NCBI GenBank assembly: GCA_005881275.1
Contig: VBEF01000017.1
Span: 23,987 to 87,986 of the forward strand
Source of the DNA: Chloroflexota bacterium
GTDB lineage: Bacteria > Chloroflexota > Dormibacteria > Dormibacterales > Dormibacteraceae
Reading direction: 5' to 3'
Length of the DNA: 64,000 bases
The translations under genes were made by a program, and so were the position numbers. The first letter of the stretch is position 1. Every line of letters starts with the position of its first letter. Shown here piece by piece: positions 39,121 to 47,537 of the stretch. Under the pieces are notes generated by a model, which was given only the letters and a program-made list of their open reading frames with translations, was not told the origin of the DNA and searched no databases.

Positions 39121-40121
39121 CGGCCCGAACCAGCCGGTTCCGAGCCGAGATCGCCGAGCAGCCGGAGGTGGCGGCGAGACTGCTCGCCCGTGGCGCCGAA
39201 GCAGCTAGCTCCATCGCTTCTCGCGTTCGGGAGGCCGCGCCGCGGGGGTTTGTGATCGCCGCGCGCGGCAGCTCGGACCACGCGGCGCTGTACGCAAAAT
39301 ACCTCTTCGGCGTGCGCAACCAATACCTCGTCGCGCTTGCCGCGCCCTCCCTGTTCACCCACTACGCGCGCCCGCCGCGTCTGGATGGCCAATCTGTGAT
39401 CGGCATCTCGCAGTCGGGTGAATCGCCTGACGTGATCGCGGTCATCGAGGAGGCAAGGCGCCAGGGCGCGCTGACGCTCGCGATCACGAACGATCCGCGC
39501 TCCAAGCTTGCTGCTTCCGCGGAGCTCGTGCTCGCGCTGCAGGCGGGTCCCGAGGTCAGCGTCCCAGCCTCAAAAACCTACACCGCGAGCCTGCTGGCGC
39601 TGGCCCTCATCTCCCAGGCGATGAGTCCAGACCCGTCGTTCGAGTCCGCGCTGAAAGCGGCGCCCGAGTCCATCGCGCGCACCCTCGATCGCGAAGCCGA
39701 GCTGGAAAGCCTCGTCCCGGCTTTGATGGGCCCGCGCGCCATCGTGCTCGGCCGGGGCTTCAACTTTTCGACCGCTGAGGAGATCGCGTTGAAGCTCAGC
39801 GAAACGAGCTACGTGCTCGCGCGTGCGTGGTCGGTTGCGGATTTCGAGCACGGCCCCATCGCGGTGGTCGAGGAGGGTCTGCCCGCGCTCATCGTCGACG
39901 GCGGCGGGCTCGTGGCCGCGAACCTCGAAGCGGTGAAGGCGCGCCTGCAGGAGCAGGGCTGCAAGGTGCTGCACCTGCTCGACGTTTCAGGGCTGCCCGA
40001 AGAGCTCACCCCGATCACGCTGGCCGTCTCCGGCCAGCTGCTCGCTCACCACGTCGCGGTCGCCCGAGGCTTCGACCCTGATCGTCCGCGGACGATTCAA
40101 AAAGTCACCCGGACCTGGTAG
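39117..40121 (+). CDS. Tandem-SIS protein, GlmS-like / NagB-II glucosamine-6-P deaminase
   Basis: FVIAARGSSDHAALYAKYLF, VIGISQSGESPDVIAVIEEARRQGALTLAITN, LGRGFNFSTAEEIALKLSET. Confidence 0.88.
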   Translation: MTARTSRFRAEIAEQPEVAARLLARGAEAASSIASRVREAAPRGFVIAARGSSDHAALYAKYLFGVRNQYLVALAAPSLFTHYARPPRLDGQSVIGISQSGESPDVIAVIEEARRQGALTLAITNDPRSKLAASAELVLALQAGPEVSVPASKTYTASLLALALISQAMSPDPSFESALKAAPESIARTLDREAELESLVPALMGPRAIVLGRGFNFSTAEEIALKLSETSYVLARAWSVADFEHGPIAVVEEGLPALIVDGGGLVAANLEAVKARLQEQGCKVLHLLDVSGLPEELTPITLAVSGQLLAHHVAVARGFDPDRPRTIQKVTRTW

Positions 40122-40343
40122 TCGCCCGGTGAGGTTCTCGTCGAGGACGATCAGTGCGGGCGTCATGACCGCGAGGAACTCGATCGCGTCTTCGATCGAT
40201 GTCGCGACCTGGACTTCGAAACCGGCCTGCTCGAACTCACGGCGAGCCGATCGCCGCTTGCGCGGATCGGTCAGGACGATGAGGATCCACGGCGTGACCT
40301 GGATCGTGTCTCGCTCGGCGTCGACGGGCGCGACAGCGATCAC
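39987..40343 (-). pseudogene. Truncated response-regulator receiver domain
   Basis: ILIVLTDPRKRRSARREFEQAGFEVQVATSIEDAIEFLAVMTPALIVLDENLTG then reads antisense into the SIS gene, lacking the REC C-terminal half. Confidence 0.55.
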
Positions 40344-40729
40344 GCCCCGGCCGCCGAGGCGGCCATCAGGCGATTCACTTCCTCCCGCAGCAACGAAAGG
40401 TCGACGGGCTTGCTGATGAAGCTGTCGACACCGCTGCCCTCGAGCGCGTCCCGGACCTCCTGGGAAAGGTCGCCTGTGAGTGCGATGACCTTGATCGGCC
40501 GCAAGACGTACCTCTTGCGCAGGAACTGCAGGACCTCAACACCGTCGTACATGGGCATGTGAACGTCCAGGATTACGAGCTGAAAGTCGCCGCTCGTGCC
40601 CATCTCGAGCGCGCGGTTGCCATCGTGAGCGATCGAGACCGAAAAGCCGTGCGACTCCAGGAAGTAGGTCAGCAGCTCCGCGCTGGGGGCGTCATCGTCG
40701 GCGACGAGTATGCGGCCGCGCCCACTCAC
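40340..40729 (-). CDS. Single-domain response regulator
   Basis: GRILVADDDAPSAELLTYFLESHGFSV...LVILDVHMPMYDGVEVLQFLRK...FISKPVD; GTG at 40729. Confidence 0.9.
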   Translation of the reverse strand: MSGRGRILVADDDAPSAELLTYFLESHGFSVSIAHDGNRALEMGTSGDFQLVILDVHMPMYDGVEVLQFLRKRYVLRPIKVIALTGDLSQEVRDALEGSGVDSFISKPVDLSLLREEVNRLMAASAAGA

Positions 40730-41136
40730 TGCGCGACTGCCCGCCGGCCGTCGTTCTCGACACCGGCGGACAGGAGCTGTCTTACCTGGACACCGAACGT
40801 GCGAGTGTCGATCGGTTTGGAGATGTAGGCGATGCACCCAGCATCCAGCGCAAGCTCGCGGTCGCCGGTCATCGCATGCGCGGTAAGCGCGACTATTGGT
40901 ACCGCCGCGGTCGCCGAGTCCGCCTTGATGAGCCGCGTCAACGTGAGCCCGTCCTGGCCGGGCAGCTGGACGTCCATCAGGATGAGGTCGGGGACGCAGT
41001 CCCCGAGCACGTCGAGGGCCTCGGGTCCTGAACCGGCGATCCGAACGTCAAAGCCTTCGAGCTCGAGCACCGCGCGAACGAGCATCTGATTGGCCTCGTT
41101 GTCTTCGACGACCAGGATCAGGCTTCGTGCCTTCAT
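40726..41136 (-). CDS. Single-domain response regulator
   Basis: LILVVEDNEANQMLVRAVLELEGFDV...DLILMDVQLPGQDGLTLTRLIKA...YISKPIDTRTF. Confidence 0.92.
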   Translation of the reverse strand: MKARSLILVVEDNEANQMLVRAVLELEGFDVRIAGSGPEALDVLGDCVPDLILMDVQLPGQDGLTLTRLIKADSATAAVPIVALTAHAMTGDRELALDAGCIAYISKPIDTRTFGVQVRQLLSAGVENDGRRAVAQ

Positions 41137-43733
41137 TTGCCTCCGTTGCGCTGAGCGACCACGTTCTTGAGCAACCCGACGATGTCCGACGTCGCCACGG
41201 ATCCGCGGCTCAGGATCTGCGACACGCGGCCGTTGAGCTGGCGCTTGTCGGCCTCGGTGAGATTGGCCGCCGTGAGGACCATGATCGGCGTGTCGCGAGT
41301 CTTGTCATCGCCGCGCAGCGCCTCGACCACGTCGAAGCCGTTTACGTCCGGCATGAGGAGGTCGAGCAGCACGAGGTCAGGCTTCGACCTCTTCGCAATC
41401 TTGATGGCATCGCGGCCCCCGGAGGCGGTCATCACCGTGAAGCCGGCGGGCTCGAGCGCCTCTGTGAGCAGCGTCCGGTTGGCCGGCTCGTCGTCGACCA
41501 CCAGCACCCGAACCTTGCGATTGCCTGGAGCGTGCGGAGCGTCGAAGCGGTCGAGGCGTTCCACCAGGGCTGAGGCGTTGACGGGCTTGACGAAGTAGTC
41601 GATCGCCCCCAGCGCGATGCCGAGCTCGGGGTTGTCGACGACGCTTACGACGACGACCGGGATGTGGCTCGTCGCCGCGTCGCTCTTCAACCTCGTGATG
41701 ACCTCCCAGCCGTCAAGCTCGGGCATGATGATGTCGAGCGTGATCGCCGCCGGCTTGAGCTCGCGCGCGAGCTCAAGCGCCTGAGTTCCCGATTTCGCCA
41801 CCTCGGTGCGATAGCCGGCGTTCCCGAGCTGGCGCGTGAGCAGCTCCGCGGCCGCGGGGTCGTCTTCCACCACCAGCACGAGCGGCCCGGCGCCATGTCC
41901 GTTCATCGACCTGGCGACGGCAGGCTCGCTCGGCGGCCGGACTGTCGCGTGGATCGGCATCACCAGGGTGAACACGCTGCCTTTGTTGACCTGGCTGCTC
42001 ACGCGCACGTCGCCGCCGTGAAGAGCGGCGAAACGCCTCGTCAGCGCGAGGCCGAGACCGGTACCTTCGTGCTTGCGGCCTGGTCCAGGGTCGACCTGGT
42101 GGAACTCGTGGAAGATCTCCTTCATGTCTGCGTCCGCGATGCCGATCCCGGTATCCGCAACTGAGATCTCCACCGTGTCCTTCACCCGGACGGCGGCGAT
42201 GGTCACCGTCCCTTCCTCCGGGGTGAACTTGATCGCGTTCGAGACGAGGTTCAGCAGCATCTGCTTCAGCTTGCCGCCGTCGGCGAGCACGTCGCCGGCG
42301 CCGTCGACGCTGACGCGCAAGGCGATGTTCTTCTTTCCGACGAGGGGCTCGACCGTCTTCGTGACCTGATCGACGGCCTCGGCAACGGAGACCATGCTCA
42401 GCCGAAGCTCCATCTGCCCGGCTTCAACCTTGGACAGGTCGAGGATATCGTTGATCAGCCCGAGCAGGTGCTTCCCGCTCGTCAGGATCTGGCTGAGGAA
42501 CCTCTTCCGCGTCGCGTCGTCGAACTGACCTTCGCGAGCATCCGTCATCAGCTCGGAGAAGCCGATGATCGCGTTCAGCGGGGTGCGCAGCTCGTGGCTC
42601 ATGTTGGCGAGGAAGACGCTCTTGTGCCGGTTGGCCTCCTGAAGCGCAAGATTCCGCTGCTCGAGCTCAACGATCAGGTGCCGGCGGTCGAGCGCGGTGA
42701 CGAACGCGCTCATCAGCTGCTGGGTGCGGTTCATCTCGTCGCCTCCGAAGCCGGGCGTGAACGGCCCAGCCAGAACGACGAGCGTGCCCGAGCCTGACAG
42801 CCCCGCCACGGGCAGCACGATCACGCTGCTGTCGACGTCCGACAGGCTGATTCGGCTGACTCCGCGGTGCAGGCGCGGCAGCATGCGTCCCAGTTCGACG
42901 ACCTGCGCAGAATCGACCCCGCGGCTCGCGGTTGCCTTGCCGGCAGCGTCGAACTGGACCGCCGCGGCGCCTCCCACGAGGCGGGTCGCCCACTCGAGCG
43001 CGCGTTTGGCCAGCGCGTCCCGGTCCTCGTCCACGAGCAGGTCCTCCATGAAGGCGCGCAGGCCTTCTTCCTCGGGTGCGCGCCACTGGCGGCGCAGCCA
43101 CGTCGGTGGCGCGAAGCTCGCGTAGAGCAGGGGGACGATCGCCAGGGCCGCCAGCTCGAAGATGACCTGGATGATGGGTTCTCGAACGAGGAATCCAATC
43201 GAGATCGCGAACAAGAGGATCCCAACAAGGCCGCCGAAGCCGATGCTCAGCGAGCGCAGCCTCCACGCCTGGACCGCAGGAAGGTTGCGCGCGACGAGCC
43301 AGAAGCGAGCGATCGGCTCGCCCACGCATGCGCACCAGATCAGGACCCAGACGACCGCGATGATCGTACTCGCGGTCCTGCCGACGGAAAGTGCCTGCGC
43401 AACGATGAGAAAGACGCTGGCTGCCGCCAACGATGCGATCGCGACGGCATGCCAGCGCCGAGGGAGGGGGATGAGGCTGTCTCGATAGAGGAGCAGCGCG
43501 TAACCGGAGCCGGCGAAGCCGAGCAGGTTGAGCGTGCCGAGCAGGGGGATGGTGAAGGGCAGGTGGGCCTGCAGGCGACCCAGTCCGGAAACCGCCGAGA
43601 GCAGGATGATGGCGAGGGCGAGGAAACCCATCGACCGGTCTCGGCTCCTCAGCCAGCTGATCGCGGTCACGAGCCCGAGGACCACGAATGCGGCCGCGAC
43701 CGCGTCTTGCAGCCAGGGAACCAGGTCGTTCAT
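41133..43733 (-). CDS. Membrane hybrid histidine kinase with two C-terminal receiver domains
   Basis: Multi-TM N-terminus; ANMSHELRTPLNAIIGFSELM; GTGLGLALTRRFAALHGG; two REC domains (ITLDIIMPELDG, LVLLDLLMPDVNG). Confidence 0.93.
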   Translation of the reverse strand: MNDLVPWLQDAVAAAFVVLGLVTAISWLRSRDRSMGFLALAIILLSAVSGLGRLQAHLPFTIPLLGTLNLLGFAGSGYALLLYRDSLIPLPRRWHAVAIASLAAASVFLIVAQALSVGRTASTIIAVVWVLIWCACVGEPIARFWLVARNLPAVQAWRLRSLSIGFGGLVGILLFAISIGFLVREPIIQVIFELAALAIVPLLYASFAPPTWLRRQWRAPEEEGLRAFMEDLLVDEDRDALAKRALEWATRLVGGAAAVQFDAAGKATASRGVDSAQVVELGRMLPRLHRGVSRISLSDVDSSVIVLPVAGLSGSGTLVVLAGPFTPGFGGDEMNRTQQLMSAFVTALDRRHLIVELEQRNLALQEANRHKSVFLANMSHELRTPLNAIIGFSELMTDAREGQFDDATRKRFLSQILTSGKHLLGLINDILDLSKVEAGQMELRLSMVSVAEAVDQVTKTVEPLVGKKNIALRVSVDGAGDVLADGGKLKQMLLNLVSNAIKFTPEEGTVTIAAVRVKDTVEISVADTGIGIADADMKEIFHEFHQVDPGPGRKHEGTGLGLALTRRFAALHGGDVRVSSQVNKGSVFTLVMPIHATVRPPSEPAVARSMNGHGAGPLVLVVEDDPAAAELLTRQLGNAGYRTEVAKSGTQALELARELKPAAITLDIIMPELDGWEVITRLKSDAATSHIPVVVVSVVDNPELGIALGAIDYFVKPVNASALVERLDRFDAPHAPGNRKVRVLVVDDEPANRTLLTEALEPAGFTVMTASGGRDAIKIAKRSKPDLVLLDLLMPDVNGFDVVEALRGDDKTRDTPIMVLTAANLTEADKRQLNGRVSQILSRGSVATSDIVGLLKNVVAQRNGGK

Positions 43734-43745
43734 CGATTCACCTCA

Positions 43746-45587
43746 GGCCGCGCCCAGCGCCGCGAGTGAAGGCATCTCGTTGACGAAGAGCTTCACGACT
43801 TCGGGATCCCATTGCCTTCCCGCGCCCGCGCTCAAGATGGCCAGCGCCTCGTCCACCGATTTTCGCTGGCGGTAAGGCCGGTCGTTGACCAGGGCGTCGA
43901 AGGCGTCGCTGACCGAAACAATGCGAGCCAGCCTCGGAATGCCGGCGCCTGACAGCCGATCTGGATAGCCGGTGCCGTCGAAGTGCTCGTGGTGGTTGCG
44001 GATGATCGGGAGGAGAGTGGCGCCTGAGCGCAGCGGCGCGACGATGTTCGCGCCGATGATCGGGTGCCGTTGCATCTTGGTCATCTCGTCGCTGTCGAGC
44101 GGTCCTGGCTTGAGCAGGATCGCGTCGGGGACGCCGATCTTGCCGATGTCGTGGATCAGGCCGCCGCGGTAAAGGGAATCGAGATCAGAGGATGAGAGGC
44201 CCAGCCGGGACCCGATCCGCCGCGCCGACTCGGCGACCCTGTGGGTGTGCGCCTCCGTGTATGGGTCTTTGGCTTCGACGGCGGCGGCGAGCGCGAAGAT
44301 CACGTGCTCGGCGCTGTCCAGCGAGTCGTAGGTGCCCTTCAGGCGTAGCGCGGAGCGCACTCTCGCCACCAGCTCCACGCGGTCGACCGGCTTCGTCATG
44401 TAGTCGTCCGCTCCCATCTCGAGCGCGCGCACGCGATCCGCGGTGCGGTCGAGCGACGTGATCATCACGACCGGCACCAGCTTGGACGCAGGATTCGCCT
44501 TGATCCGCTTGCACACTTCGTAGCCGTCCATGCCCGGCATCTGGACGTCGAGCAGGATCAGGTCGGGGGGAGACGCGCTTATGAACTTGAGCGCGCTAAC
44601 CCCGTCTTCGGCCGTTCGCACCTGGCATTCGACTCCGGCGAGGCACGCCTCGATGAGCTCGCGGTTGGCGGCCCCGTCGTCGACCACCAGCACGACGGGT
44701 GCGTGATCGGGCCGGGCCAGCTGTCGCGTGACCGGGACGATCGCGACTAGCTCGTCGCCGTGGCCGTTCGGCCATGCGGCGGGTTTCAGGGCGGCGACGA
44801 AGGCGGCGGCGGTGGCGAAGCGGTCGTCCGGGCGCTTCGCCAGCGCCTTGCGCAGAACTTCCTCGATGTGCGCGGAAAGCTCACCCCGGAGCTCGCGGGT
44901 CGCCGGCATCGGCTTGGTCACGTGGGAGAGGAGCACGGCTGCCGGCGTATCGGCTCCGAAGGGCACACGTCCGGTCAGCATCTCGTAGGCGACGACGGCG
45001 AAGGAGTAGATATCTGAGGCCGGGCCGATGGTCTCATCAGCCGCCTGCTCGGGCGACATGTACTCGGGCGTCCCCATCACGGTGCCCGAGCTGGTCAGCC
45101 TGCGCATCGAGCCCGCCATCCGGGCCAGGCCGAAGTCCGCGAGCACGGGCGTGCCGTCCTTGTGAAGCAAGATGTTCGAAGGCTTGATGTCCCGGTGCAG
45201 GATGCCGTTGGCGTGCGCGTGGTCGAGCGCGCCGGCCAGCTGCTCGAGCGTGTGCACAGACTGGCGAAGGTCCATCGGGGTGCCAACCCGGTCGGACAGG
45301 GTGCCGCCCTCGACGAGCTCGAGGACGAGGTAGGCCAGGCCTCCCTCATACCCGAAGTCGAAAACTTCCAGGATGTTGGGGTGCTTCAGGCGGGCCACCG
45401 AGCGCGCCTCCTGCTGGAATCTTTCGCGGTACTCCGGGTCCTCGGCGAAGAAGTCGGGGAGGACCTTGATCGCGACGTATCGGTCGAGGCCCGGGTGATA
45501 AGCCCGGTGCACGGTTGCCATGCCGCCGCGGCCGATGCGCTCCATCACGCGGTAGGGGCCGAGCGCCATCCCTTCGCGGATGTTCAT
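43746..45587 (-). CDS. Ser/Thr protein kinase - receiver - HD-GYP phosphodiesterase fusion
   Basis: IGRGGMATVHRAYH, HRDIKPSNIL, DFGLAR, PEYMSPEQA; LILLDVQMPGMDGYEV; LIHDIGKIGVPDAIL, HHEHFDGTGYPDRLSG. Confidence 0.93.
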
Positions 45588-45845: not shown

Positions 45846-47537
45846 TCACAGCCACCCGTCCCGCGCCGCGCGGTGGGCGAGATCGGTCCGGTTTGTGGTG
45901 CCGGTCTTCTGGAGGATCTGACGGACGTGGAACTTGATCGTGTTCTGGCTGAGGTGGACCTGGGCGGCGATCTCGCGATTCCTCAGGCCTTCCCCGATGA
46001 GGCGGAGGATCTGGATCTCGAGCCGGCTCAGCGAGAGCGGCGGCGCCGGTGCCCGCCGCGGAAGCTCGGCGGCCTGGCTCTTGCGAAGTCGATCCTGCAT
46101 GGCGGCGTTGTCGATGGCGATCGCGGCGACGCTCCCCAGCGCGTCCAGGAAAGAGACCCATTCCTGGTCCGGCGCCAGCGGGGTCCGGTGGTAGACCTCG
46201 AGCGCGCCGAGGAGCTTGCCACGCGTGATCAGCGGCACGGCGCCGTAGGCCTTGAAGCCTTCGCGAGCGAATAGCGAGCGGCGGCGGAACTGGGAAAAGG
46301 CGCTCAATGCGGTCACGGTCTCGATCCGTCGCCCGATGACAGCCCGTCCCGGCAGGCCCTCGTCCACGGGCAGACGGTAGTCGGGCACCGCCGTGGCCAG
46401 GAACCCGGTGCTTGCGGCGAGGGCGAGCATGTTGTCCGGCTCCTCGAGCAGCAAGACGTCAGCCGCGTCGACCTTCAGCTGCGCCGTGACCTGGTCGAGG
46501 ATCACCTTGAGCGTGAGCCGAAGGTCGGGGCTCGCGCTCAAGGCCAGGCTCAGACTCTGCAGGGAGCCCAGCCGTTCGAGGCGCATCACCGCGTCCTCGT
46601 AAAGCTGGGCATTCTCGACCGCAAGCGCCGTCCGATCGGCGACGGCCTGCATCCAGAGGACGTCTTTCTCGGTCAGAGGATTCGAGCTGCGTCGCTCGCA
46701 AAGAGAAAGGGTGCCGACCGCCGCGCCACGCGCCCGCATGGGCACCATGAGCAAGCCCATCACCTCGTTCGAAATCGGCAGAGGATGGTCGGCGATGTAA
46801 CTCGCCACATGCGGATCGGTCATCTTCAGGATCTCCTCGAGCGCGATCTGTGGCAGGAGGAGGGGCTTGCCCGTCTCGATGACTCGCTGCCTGATGCCGG
46901 TGGTCGGCGTCTCTCCTGGCCGCCCGAAAGCGGCCAGGCCACGCTCGAAGTAGTCGACCATCTTGGGGGTGCCGGTGTCGGCCATCACGACCAGCGAAGT
47001 GCTTGGATCCTTGTTCAGGAGGGTGGCGACCCACGTTCCAGGTCGCATGTTGCTGAGGGCGCGGGTGACGACCTCGAGGATGGAGCGGGTTTCGAGGCCG
47101 GCGTCGGCCAGCTCAGCAAGCACCTCGCTCACGATGTGATCGCCGGCACTCCGGCTCGTCAGCCGGCTGCGCGCGAACAGATGACTGACGTCCGCCATGC
47201 TCGCCACGACGCGTGTCACCTCTCCGGAAGGTTCGAGCTGCGGCACCGCGTCGATCTGGAGCCAGACGTCGCTGCCGTCAGGACGCGTTGCCTTCGCCAG
47301 CACGCCTCGGATGGTCTGAAGACTCTTCAGCGACGCGGTGACCGGATGCACGGATATCGGTCCCTCGGGAGCTTCGAGAACCAACCACTCGGCATCCTGG
47401 GCGTATGACCCCACGAGGCTGTCCCGGGTCATCCCAAGCAGCGTGATTGCGGCCTCGTTGGCCTCCGTGACGCGGCCGCGGCCGTCATAGACGACGAGCG
47501 CACCGGGAAGGTTGTGCCAGCTCAAGCCTGCAACCAA
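45846..47537 (-). CDS. PAS-GAF-GAF LuxR-type regulator
   Basis: N-terminal PAS-like; GAF regions; SRLEIQILRLIGEGLRNREIAAQVHLSQNTIKFHVRQILQKTGTTNRTDLAHRA. Confidence 0.88.
   Translation of the reverse strand: MVAGLSWHNLPGALVVYDGRGRVTEANEAAITLLGMTRDSLVGSYAQDAEWLVLEAPEGPISVHPVTASLKSLQTIRGVLAKATRPDGSDVWLQIDAVPQLEPSGEVTRVVASMADVSHLFARSRLTSRSAGDHIVSEVLAELADAGLETRSILEVVTRALSNMRPGTWVATLLNKDPSTSLVVMADTGTPKMVDYFERGLAAFGRPGETPTTGIRQRVIETGKPLLLPQIALEEILKMTDPHVASYIADHPLPISNEVMGLLMVPMRARGAAVGTLSLCERRSSNPLTEKDVLWMQAVADRTALAVENAQLYEDAVMRLERLGSLQSLSLALSASPDLRLTLKVILDQVTAQLKVDAADVLLLEEPDNMLALAASTGFLATAVPDYRLPVDEGLPGRAVIGRRIETVTALSAFSQFRRRSLFAREGFKAYGAVPLITRGKLLGALEVYHRTPLAPDQEWVSFLDALGSVAAIAIDNAAMQDRLRKSQAAELPRRAPAPPLSLSRLEIQILRLIGEGLRNREIAAQVHLSQNTIKFHVRQILQKTGTTNRTDLAHRAARDGWL

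Follow-up and report, generated by a model that had tools for sequence, protein, structure and literature searches.

The modules that concern us here, a Ser/Thr kinase, a receiver (REC) and an HD-GYP domain, are each well known, as is the pairing of the latter two, and crosstalk between Ser/Thr kinases and two-component systems is known mainly from separate proteins such as PrkC and WalR. The specificity of an HD-GYP enzyme (c-di-GMP, pGpG or 3'3'-cGAMP) is not readable from its sequence, and to our knowledge direct links of such crosstalk to c-di-GMP turnover are poorly defined. Among the closest described systems, PA4781 has a receiver that masks its HD-GYP domain while unphosphorylated, and activity returns on phosphorylation by acetyl phosphate (PMC3774798). 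PrkC acts as a kinase on Thr101 of the WalR receiver, a residue within a peptide that includes GADDYVTKP, and does not phosphorylate the T101S mutant (PMC4478028).

The window, by which we mean the whole 64,000-nucleotide stretch of DNA from a Chloroflexota soil bacterium that was analysed, carries all three modules in one gene, within a cluster of signalling genes whose features are as follows.

45846..47537, minus strand: PAS-GAF-GAF-LuxR-type HTH regulator, first gene of the cluster (Pfam; cluster conserved)
43743..45587, minus strand: kinase-REC-HD-GYP fusion, a single 614-aa ORF with an ATG start (Pfam; about 20 orthologues)
44784..45554, minus strand: PknB-type Ser/Thr kinase domain, aa 12-268, with K41, E60, HRD131-133, K135, N138, D151FG, T165/S167 (activation loop) and T173 (Pfam, orthologue alignment, closest solved structures)
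44697..44783, minus strand: flexible linker, aa 269-297 (residues 273-293 at pLDDT <50; dN/dS 0.28)
44349..44696, minus strand: receiver domain, aa 298-413, with D303, D304, phosphoacceptor D347, T377, K399 and the candidate Ser/Thr site T398 (Pfam, invariant residues)
44271..44381, minus strand: predicted unbroken connecting helix from REC alpha5 into HD-GYP, aa 403-439 (AlphaFold2 model)
43782..44300, minus strand: HD-GYP domain, aa 430-602, with H447, H479, D480, K483, H508, H532, H533, GYP 540-542 and D561, and with Y443 in the place of PmGH E185 (Pfam; alignments to PmGH and V-cGAP3)
41133..43733, minus strand: transmembrane hybrid histidine kinase, HisKA-HATPase-REC-REC (Pfam, hydrophobic peaks, operon conserved)
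40726..41136, minus strand: stand-alone receiver a (its start shares ATGA with the stop of the histidine kinase gene; Pfam; cluster conserved)
40340..40837, minus strand: stand-alone receiver b (Pfam; cluster conserved)
39987-40343, minus strand: short ORF with only half a receiver, at the operon's end (a similar receiver-like match lies at L175:7567-7947)

Pfam placed the three domains in this one ORF, as a sequence-only reading of the window had proposed, with Pkinase at residues 12-260 (E = 1.8e-47), Response_reg at 299-411 (E = 1.1e-30) and HD_5/HD-GYP at 434-597 (E = 1.2e-36). The motifs which that reading had quoted as intact (HRDIKPSN, DFG, SPE, LLDVQMPGMDG and HHEHFDGTGYP) were each found in the ORF, together with HDIGK, and its claim that the protein has no transmembrane helix agreed with a maximum mean Kyte-Doolittle value of 1.34 over 19-mers against the threshold of 1.6 above which a segment was called; it had given the right ORF at 43746-45587 with the stop codon left out, so that the start coordinate needed correction to 43743. 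Alignment of 20 orthologues revealed that K41, E60, HRD, K135, N138, DFG, T165 and T173 of the kinase are invariant, as is its APE-like motif, S178-P-E180, and that S167 of the activation loop is kept in at least 90%. Receiver residues D303/D304, D347, T377 and K399 are likewise invariant in these orthologues, as are the listed HD-GYP residues except Y443. PknB and PknA are the closest solved structures to the kinase by sequence and fold, and the PASTA kinase profile NF033483 matched just the kinase half, at 319.6 bits, below the NCBIfam cut-off of 450 bits, which together with the lack of a transmembrane segment places the protein outside the PASTA kinases. The HD-GYP domain keeps seven of the eight PmGH metal ligands, the eighth, Glu185, being Tyr443, and it falls outside the trinuclear E/D-T-G subgroup, with Y443-T-E aligned to PmGH E185-T-Q. 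For the Y/F subgroup, here including Tyr443, two rather than three metals are expected (PMC4159591). By the features tested, the protein is a Y/F-subgroup REC-HD-GYP response regulator that bears an intact Hanks-type kinase. Its closest solved HD-GYP relative by sequence is V-cGAP3 (5z7c), a 3'3'-cGAMP enzyme; because the source genome holds GGDEF proteins (10 GGDEF matches, with one EAL match), c-di-GMP is probably made in the organism and is the likeliest substrate, with cGAMP or pGpG possible.

The cluster has a conserved order, LuxR-type regulator, REC-HD-GYP with or without the kinase, transmembrane hybrid histidine kinase, REC and REC, in which the fusion is the second gene and occupies the response-regulator slot. 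The operon with its hybrid histidine kinase, which the sequence-only reading had not mentioned, is the main clue to what drives the fusion protein: this kinase has at least six hydrophobic peaks above the transmembrane threshold of 1.6, its gene starts 9 bp after the fusion stop with GGTGA in between, and it is the likely phosphodonor to the fusion's receiver. Of the two receivers in this histidine kinase, the second carries LLDLLMPDVNG, a sequence of phosphoacceptor type, but towards its C-terminal end has no KP motif of the usual kind. The fusion gene could have its own promoter, since 258 bp separate it from the end of the LuxR gene upstream; a promoter and terminator scan gave nothing above chance.

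Beyond the window, the full-length fusion recurs at 66-89% identity in about 20 further genomes (MAGs) of species rank from this Chloroflexota family. Every one of the 17 genomes searched in the source genus carries it (a contig end cuts it in G301 and G087), as do five genomes of three other family genera (G215, G322, G323, G296 and G314, with the G323 gene running into a contig end). The source genome itself carries a second full-length copy at 69% identity (G000:C15:9916-11742; L002; L151), and an ORF within about 1 kb of this copy, on the same strand, has a GGDEF match (C15:12623-13054), such that the neighbouring gene may be a c-di-GMP synthase. In comparisons of 11 orthologues two by two (Nei–Gojobori), dN/dS was 0.13 for the kinase, 0.11 for the receiver and 0.15 for the HD-GYP domain, with 0.28 for the kinase-receiver linker and 0.64 for the C-terminal tail; purifying selection acts on all three domains.

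Sister genera fill the same operon slot with a REC-HD-GYP protein that has no kinase and is up to 75% identical to the REC-HD-GYP half of the fusion, and G215 has both operon types, fused (L153) and unfused (L144). The kinase is therefore dispensable for the core circuit. In a REC-HD-GYP tree the fused rows do not form one clade; one row scored there as unfused, L157, is in fact a fusion gene truncated at a contig end, and we rejected it as an unfused copy. Because the kinases of this family's fused proteins all group in a single clade (SH-aLRT 99), the simplest reading is that a kinase was captured once at the base of the group and later lost about twice, as counted from changes on unrooted trees. 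Matches with internal stops in G261, G302, G303, G307 and G322, which had suggested intermediates with a stop between kinase and REC-HD-GYP, were rejected, since these are REC-HD-GYP genes of the ordinary kind and have no kinase upstream.

A search of other phyla revealed the same kinase–REC–HD-GYP order in Planctomycetota (L212, L213 and L215), and a full-length or near full-length triple fusion was listed in 41 of 61 sampled Gemmatales genomes, often in two or three copies. One of the 41, G528, has stop codons in the reading frames, and in its locus L275 an in-frame stop inside the kinase domain splits the fused gene, by pseudogenization or sequencing error. The Gemmatales fusions are extended at the N-terminus and probably have a coiled coil inserted ahead of the HD-GYP domain, L212 is 35% identical to the window's fusion, and the order has its own unfused REC-HD-GYP orthologues (L277–L283). 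Because a joint REC-HD-GYP group was rejected (AU p = 0.004) and the Chloroflexota and Gemmatales fusion kinases fall in two separate clades, two independent joins are the better reading of these trees and a single ancient origin is not favoured; an AU test on fused rows only was set aside as uninformative, with unfused rows nesting among them. Two of the Planctomycetota proteins have altered HD motifs (YDLGL in L215, HDVGM in L213) and intact kinase motifs, which suggests that some of these fusions have lost phosphodiesterase activity.

No further triple fusion was among the matches listed for 118 other Planctomycetota, 99 Acidobacteriota, 78 Myxococcota and other Chloroflexota, samples in which only the top candidates of each genome were scored, and phage records and the 5000 best plasmid records included none with one place covering 80% of the fusion. 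The earlier judgement that the architecture is uncommon was hence half right: it is not among the matches listed for these other groups and plasmids, yet it is in every searched member of the source genus and in about two thirds of the 61 Gemmatales genomes. Acidobacteriota loci L304 and L306 have a kinase–REC gene that adjoins, convergently, a REC-HD-GYP gene, and planctomycete L292 has histidine kinase–REC, REC-HD-GYP and kinase–REC genes in a row; these adjoining genes are independent signs of functional linkage. Other Acidobacteriota combinations were a tandem REC-HD-GYP-REC-HD-GYP encoded as one ORF in each of L301 and L302 (782 and 692 aa) and a histidine kinase, receiver and HD-GYP domain in a single ORF (L313). 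The triple fusion is undescribed in the open PMC literature that we searched, with a census mention possible in subscription papers or domain databases, and what is new here is how widely Gemmatales carry this order of three domains, from an independent join. The fusion appears to be a recurrent wiring point between signalling systems.

Setting out from what we observed of the domain layout, the intact residues, the selection on them, the operon and the history of the fusion, we favour, with a probability of roughly 55%, a phosphodiesterase like RpfG and PA4781 that would be gated at Asp347 by the neighbouring histidine kinase and would receive a further input from its tethered Ser/Thr kinase. 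The protein would be a soluble, probably dimeric response-regulator phosphodiesterase that gained an N-terminal PknB-type kinase. As a first step, the membrane hybrid histidine kinase would phosphorylate Asp347, directly or through the operon's small receivers; as a second, the receiver would shift off the HD-GYP active site by way of the continuous 403-439 helix and switch on cyclic dinucleotide hydrolysis, most likely of c-di-GMP. As a third, the kinase, on its disordered tether of about 20-25 aa, would autophosphorylate its activation loop (T165/S167) and phosphorylate the receiver/HD-GYP half in cis, with Thr398 as a candidate, and/or partners near the complex; two phosphorylation inputs would thereby be integrated by a single output enzyme. 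Of the three steps that we infer, the third is the least certain. That the fusion functionally joins three signalling modes is, given its intact and conserved active sites, a fair expectation.

An AlphaFold2 model built from a deeper alignment (mean pLDDT 87.0, pTM 0.49) has well-formed domains, a disordered activation loop (155–170) and linker (273–293), and a helix at 403–439 that runs unbroken from the receiver into the HD-GYP domain; an earlier run with 20 close sequences was too poor (pLDDT 69.7). At a pTM of 0.49 the placement of the kinase relative to the other domains is not fixed by the model, and docking on the receiver is not implied. Thr398 (GADDYMTKP) aligns by motif with WalR Thr101, and position 398 is T or S in all 22 fused proteins, whereas 12 unfused relatives from this family have Ala there. 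Because those 12 rows fall in only about two clades, because T/S ahead of the conserved Lys is common among receivers generally and because T101S of WalR was not phosphorylated, Thr398 as a Ser/Thr phosphosite is a candidate and a lead, not proof.

An alternative that we consider unlikely, though worth weighing, is that the kinase acts in trans, with the REC and HD-GYP half serving as a sensor that sets kinase activity through Asp phosphorylation or cyclic-dinucleotide binding, and with its main output being to phosphorylate other proteins on Ser/Thr, such as the operon's LuxR regulator or small receivers. The intact kinase with its conserved activation-loop T165, its flexible tether, the conservation of the LuxR regulator and small receivers in the same cluster, and the Gemmatales fusions with altered HD motifs all fit such an arrangement, but some operons of the Chloroflexota family are missing the kinase and not the HD-GYP domain, and the HD-GYP residues are fully conserved in the fused members. 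Less probable still is a loose association, in which the kinase and REC-HD-GYP share a pathway, expression and stoichiometry with no regulation between domains; this would suit the flexible, faster-evolving linker, the low pTM and the orthologues that retain the operon without the kinase, whereas independent joins in the same order in two phyla, and side-by-side genes elsewhere, suggest coupling beyond co-expression. A misassembly or frameshift that merged separate genes, which the sequence-only reading had raised against itself, or a degenerate, non-functional kinase, has next to no chance of being right: the source genome is fragmented (127 contigs) and 86% complete, but the fusion is real because the same intact ORF turns up, at 66-89% identity, in many assemblies made independently and again as the 69% paralogue, with invariant catalytic residues and domains under purifying selection (dN/dS 0.11-0.15).

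We propose more tentatively, at clearly less than even odds, a recurrent and independently evolved fusion class in which a Hanks-type kinase would directly control a cyclic-dinucleotide phosphodiesterase via the very receiver that a histidine kinase phosphorylates; if true, this would mean Asp and Ser/Thr control of c-di-GMP (or cGAMP) turnover in one polypeptide. The fusion covalently joins both inputs and the second-messenger enzyme, and the crosstalk question can be tested directly with one purified protein, for which the unfused orthologues in the same operon slot are natural, built-in controls and for which an independent counterpart exists in Gemmatales, an order with cultured members.

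Compared with known systems, the fusion has a receiver followed by an HD-GYP domain, as do RpfG (Xanthomonas), PA4781 (P. aeruginosa) and TM0186 (T. maritima), keeps their active-site residues except at the variable Glu185 position and is likewise encoded beside a hybrid histidine kinase; unlike all three, it has an intact PknB-type kinase ahead of the receiver, and its metal site is of the Y/F type, whereas that of TM0186 is of the E/D-T-G type. From V-cGAP3, the 3'3'-cGAMP phosphodiesterase of Vibrio cholerae, only the HD-GYP part matches. The kinase shares its fold and motifs with PknA and PknB of M. tuberculosis and PrkC of B. subtilis, yet differs from them in having no transmembrane segment and no PASTA sensor and in carrying a receiver and a phosphodiesterase in cis. 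Acidobacteriota L304 and L306 and planctomycete L292 link the same three modules, but in two genes that each have their own receiver. The Gemmatales kinase-REC-coiled-coil-HD-GYP proteins share the domain order and come from a group that also has unfused REC-HD-GYP orthologues, and they differ in their 35% identity (L212), N-terminal extension, probable coiled-coil and separate clades for both halves.
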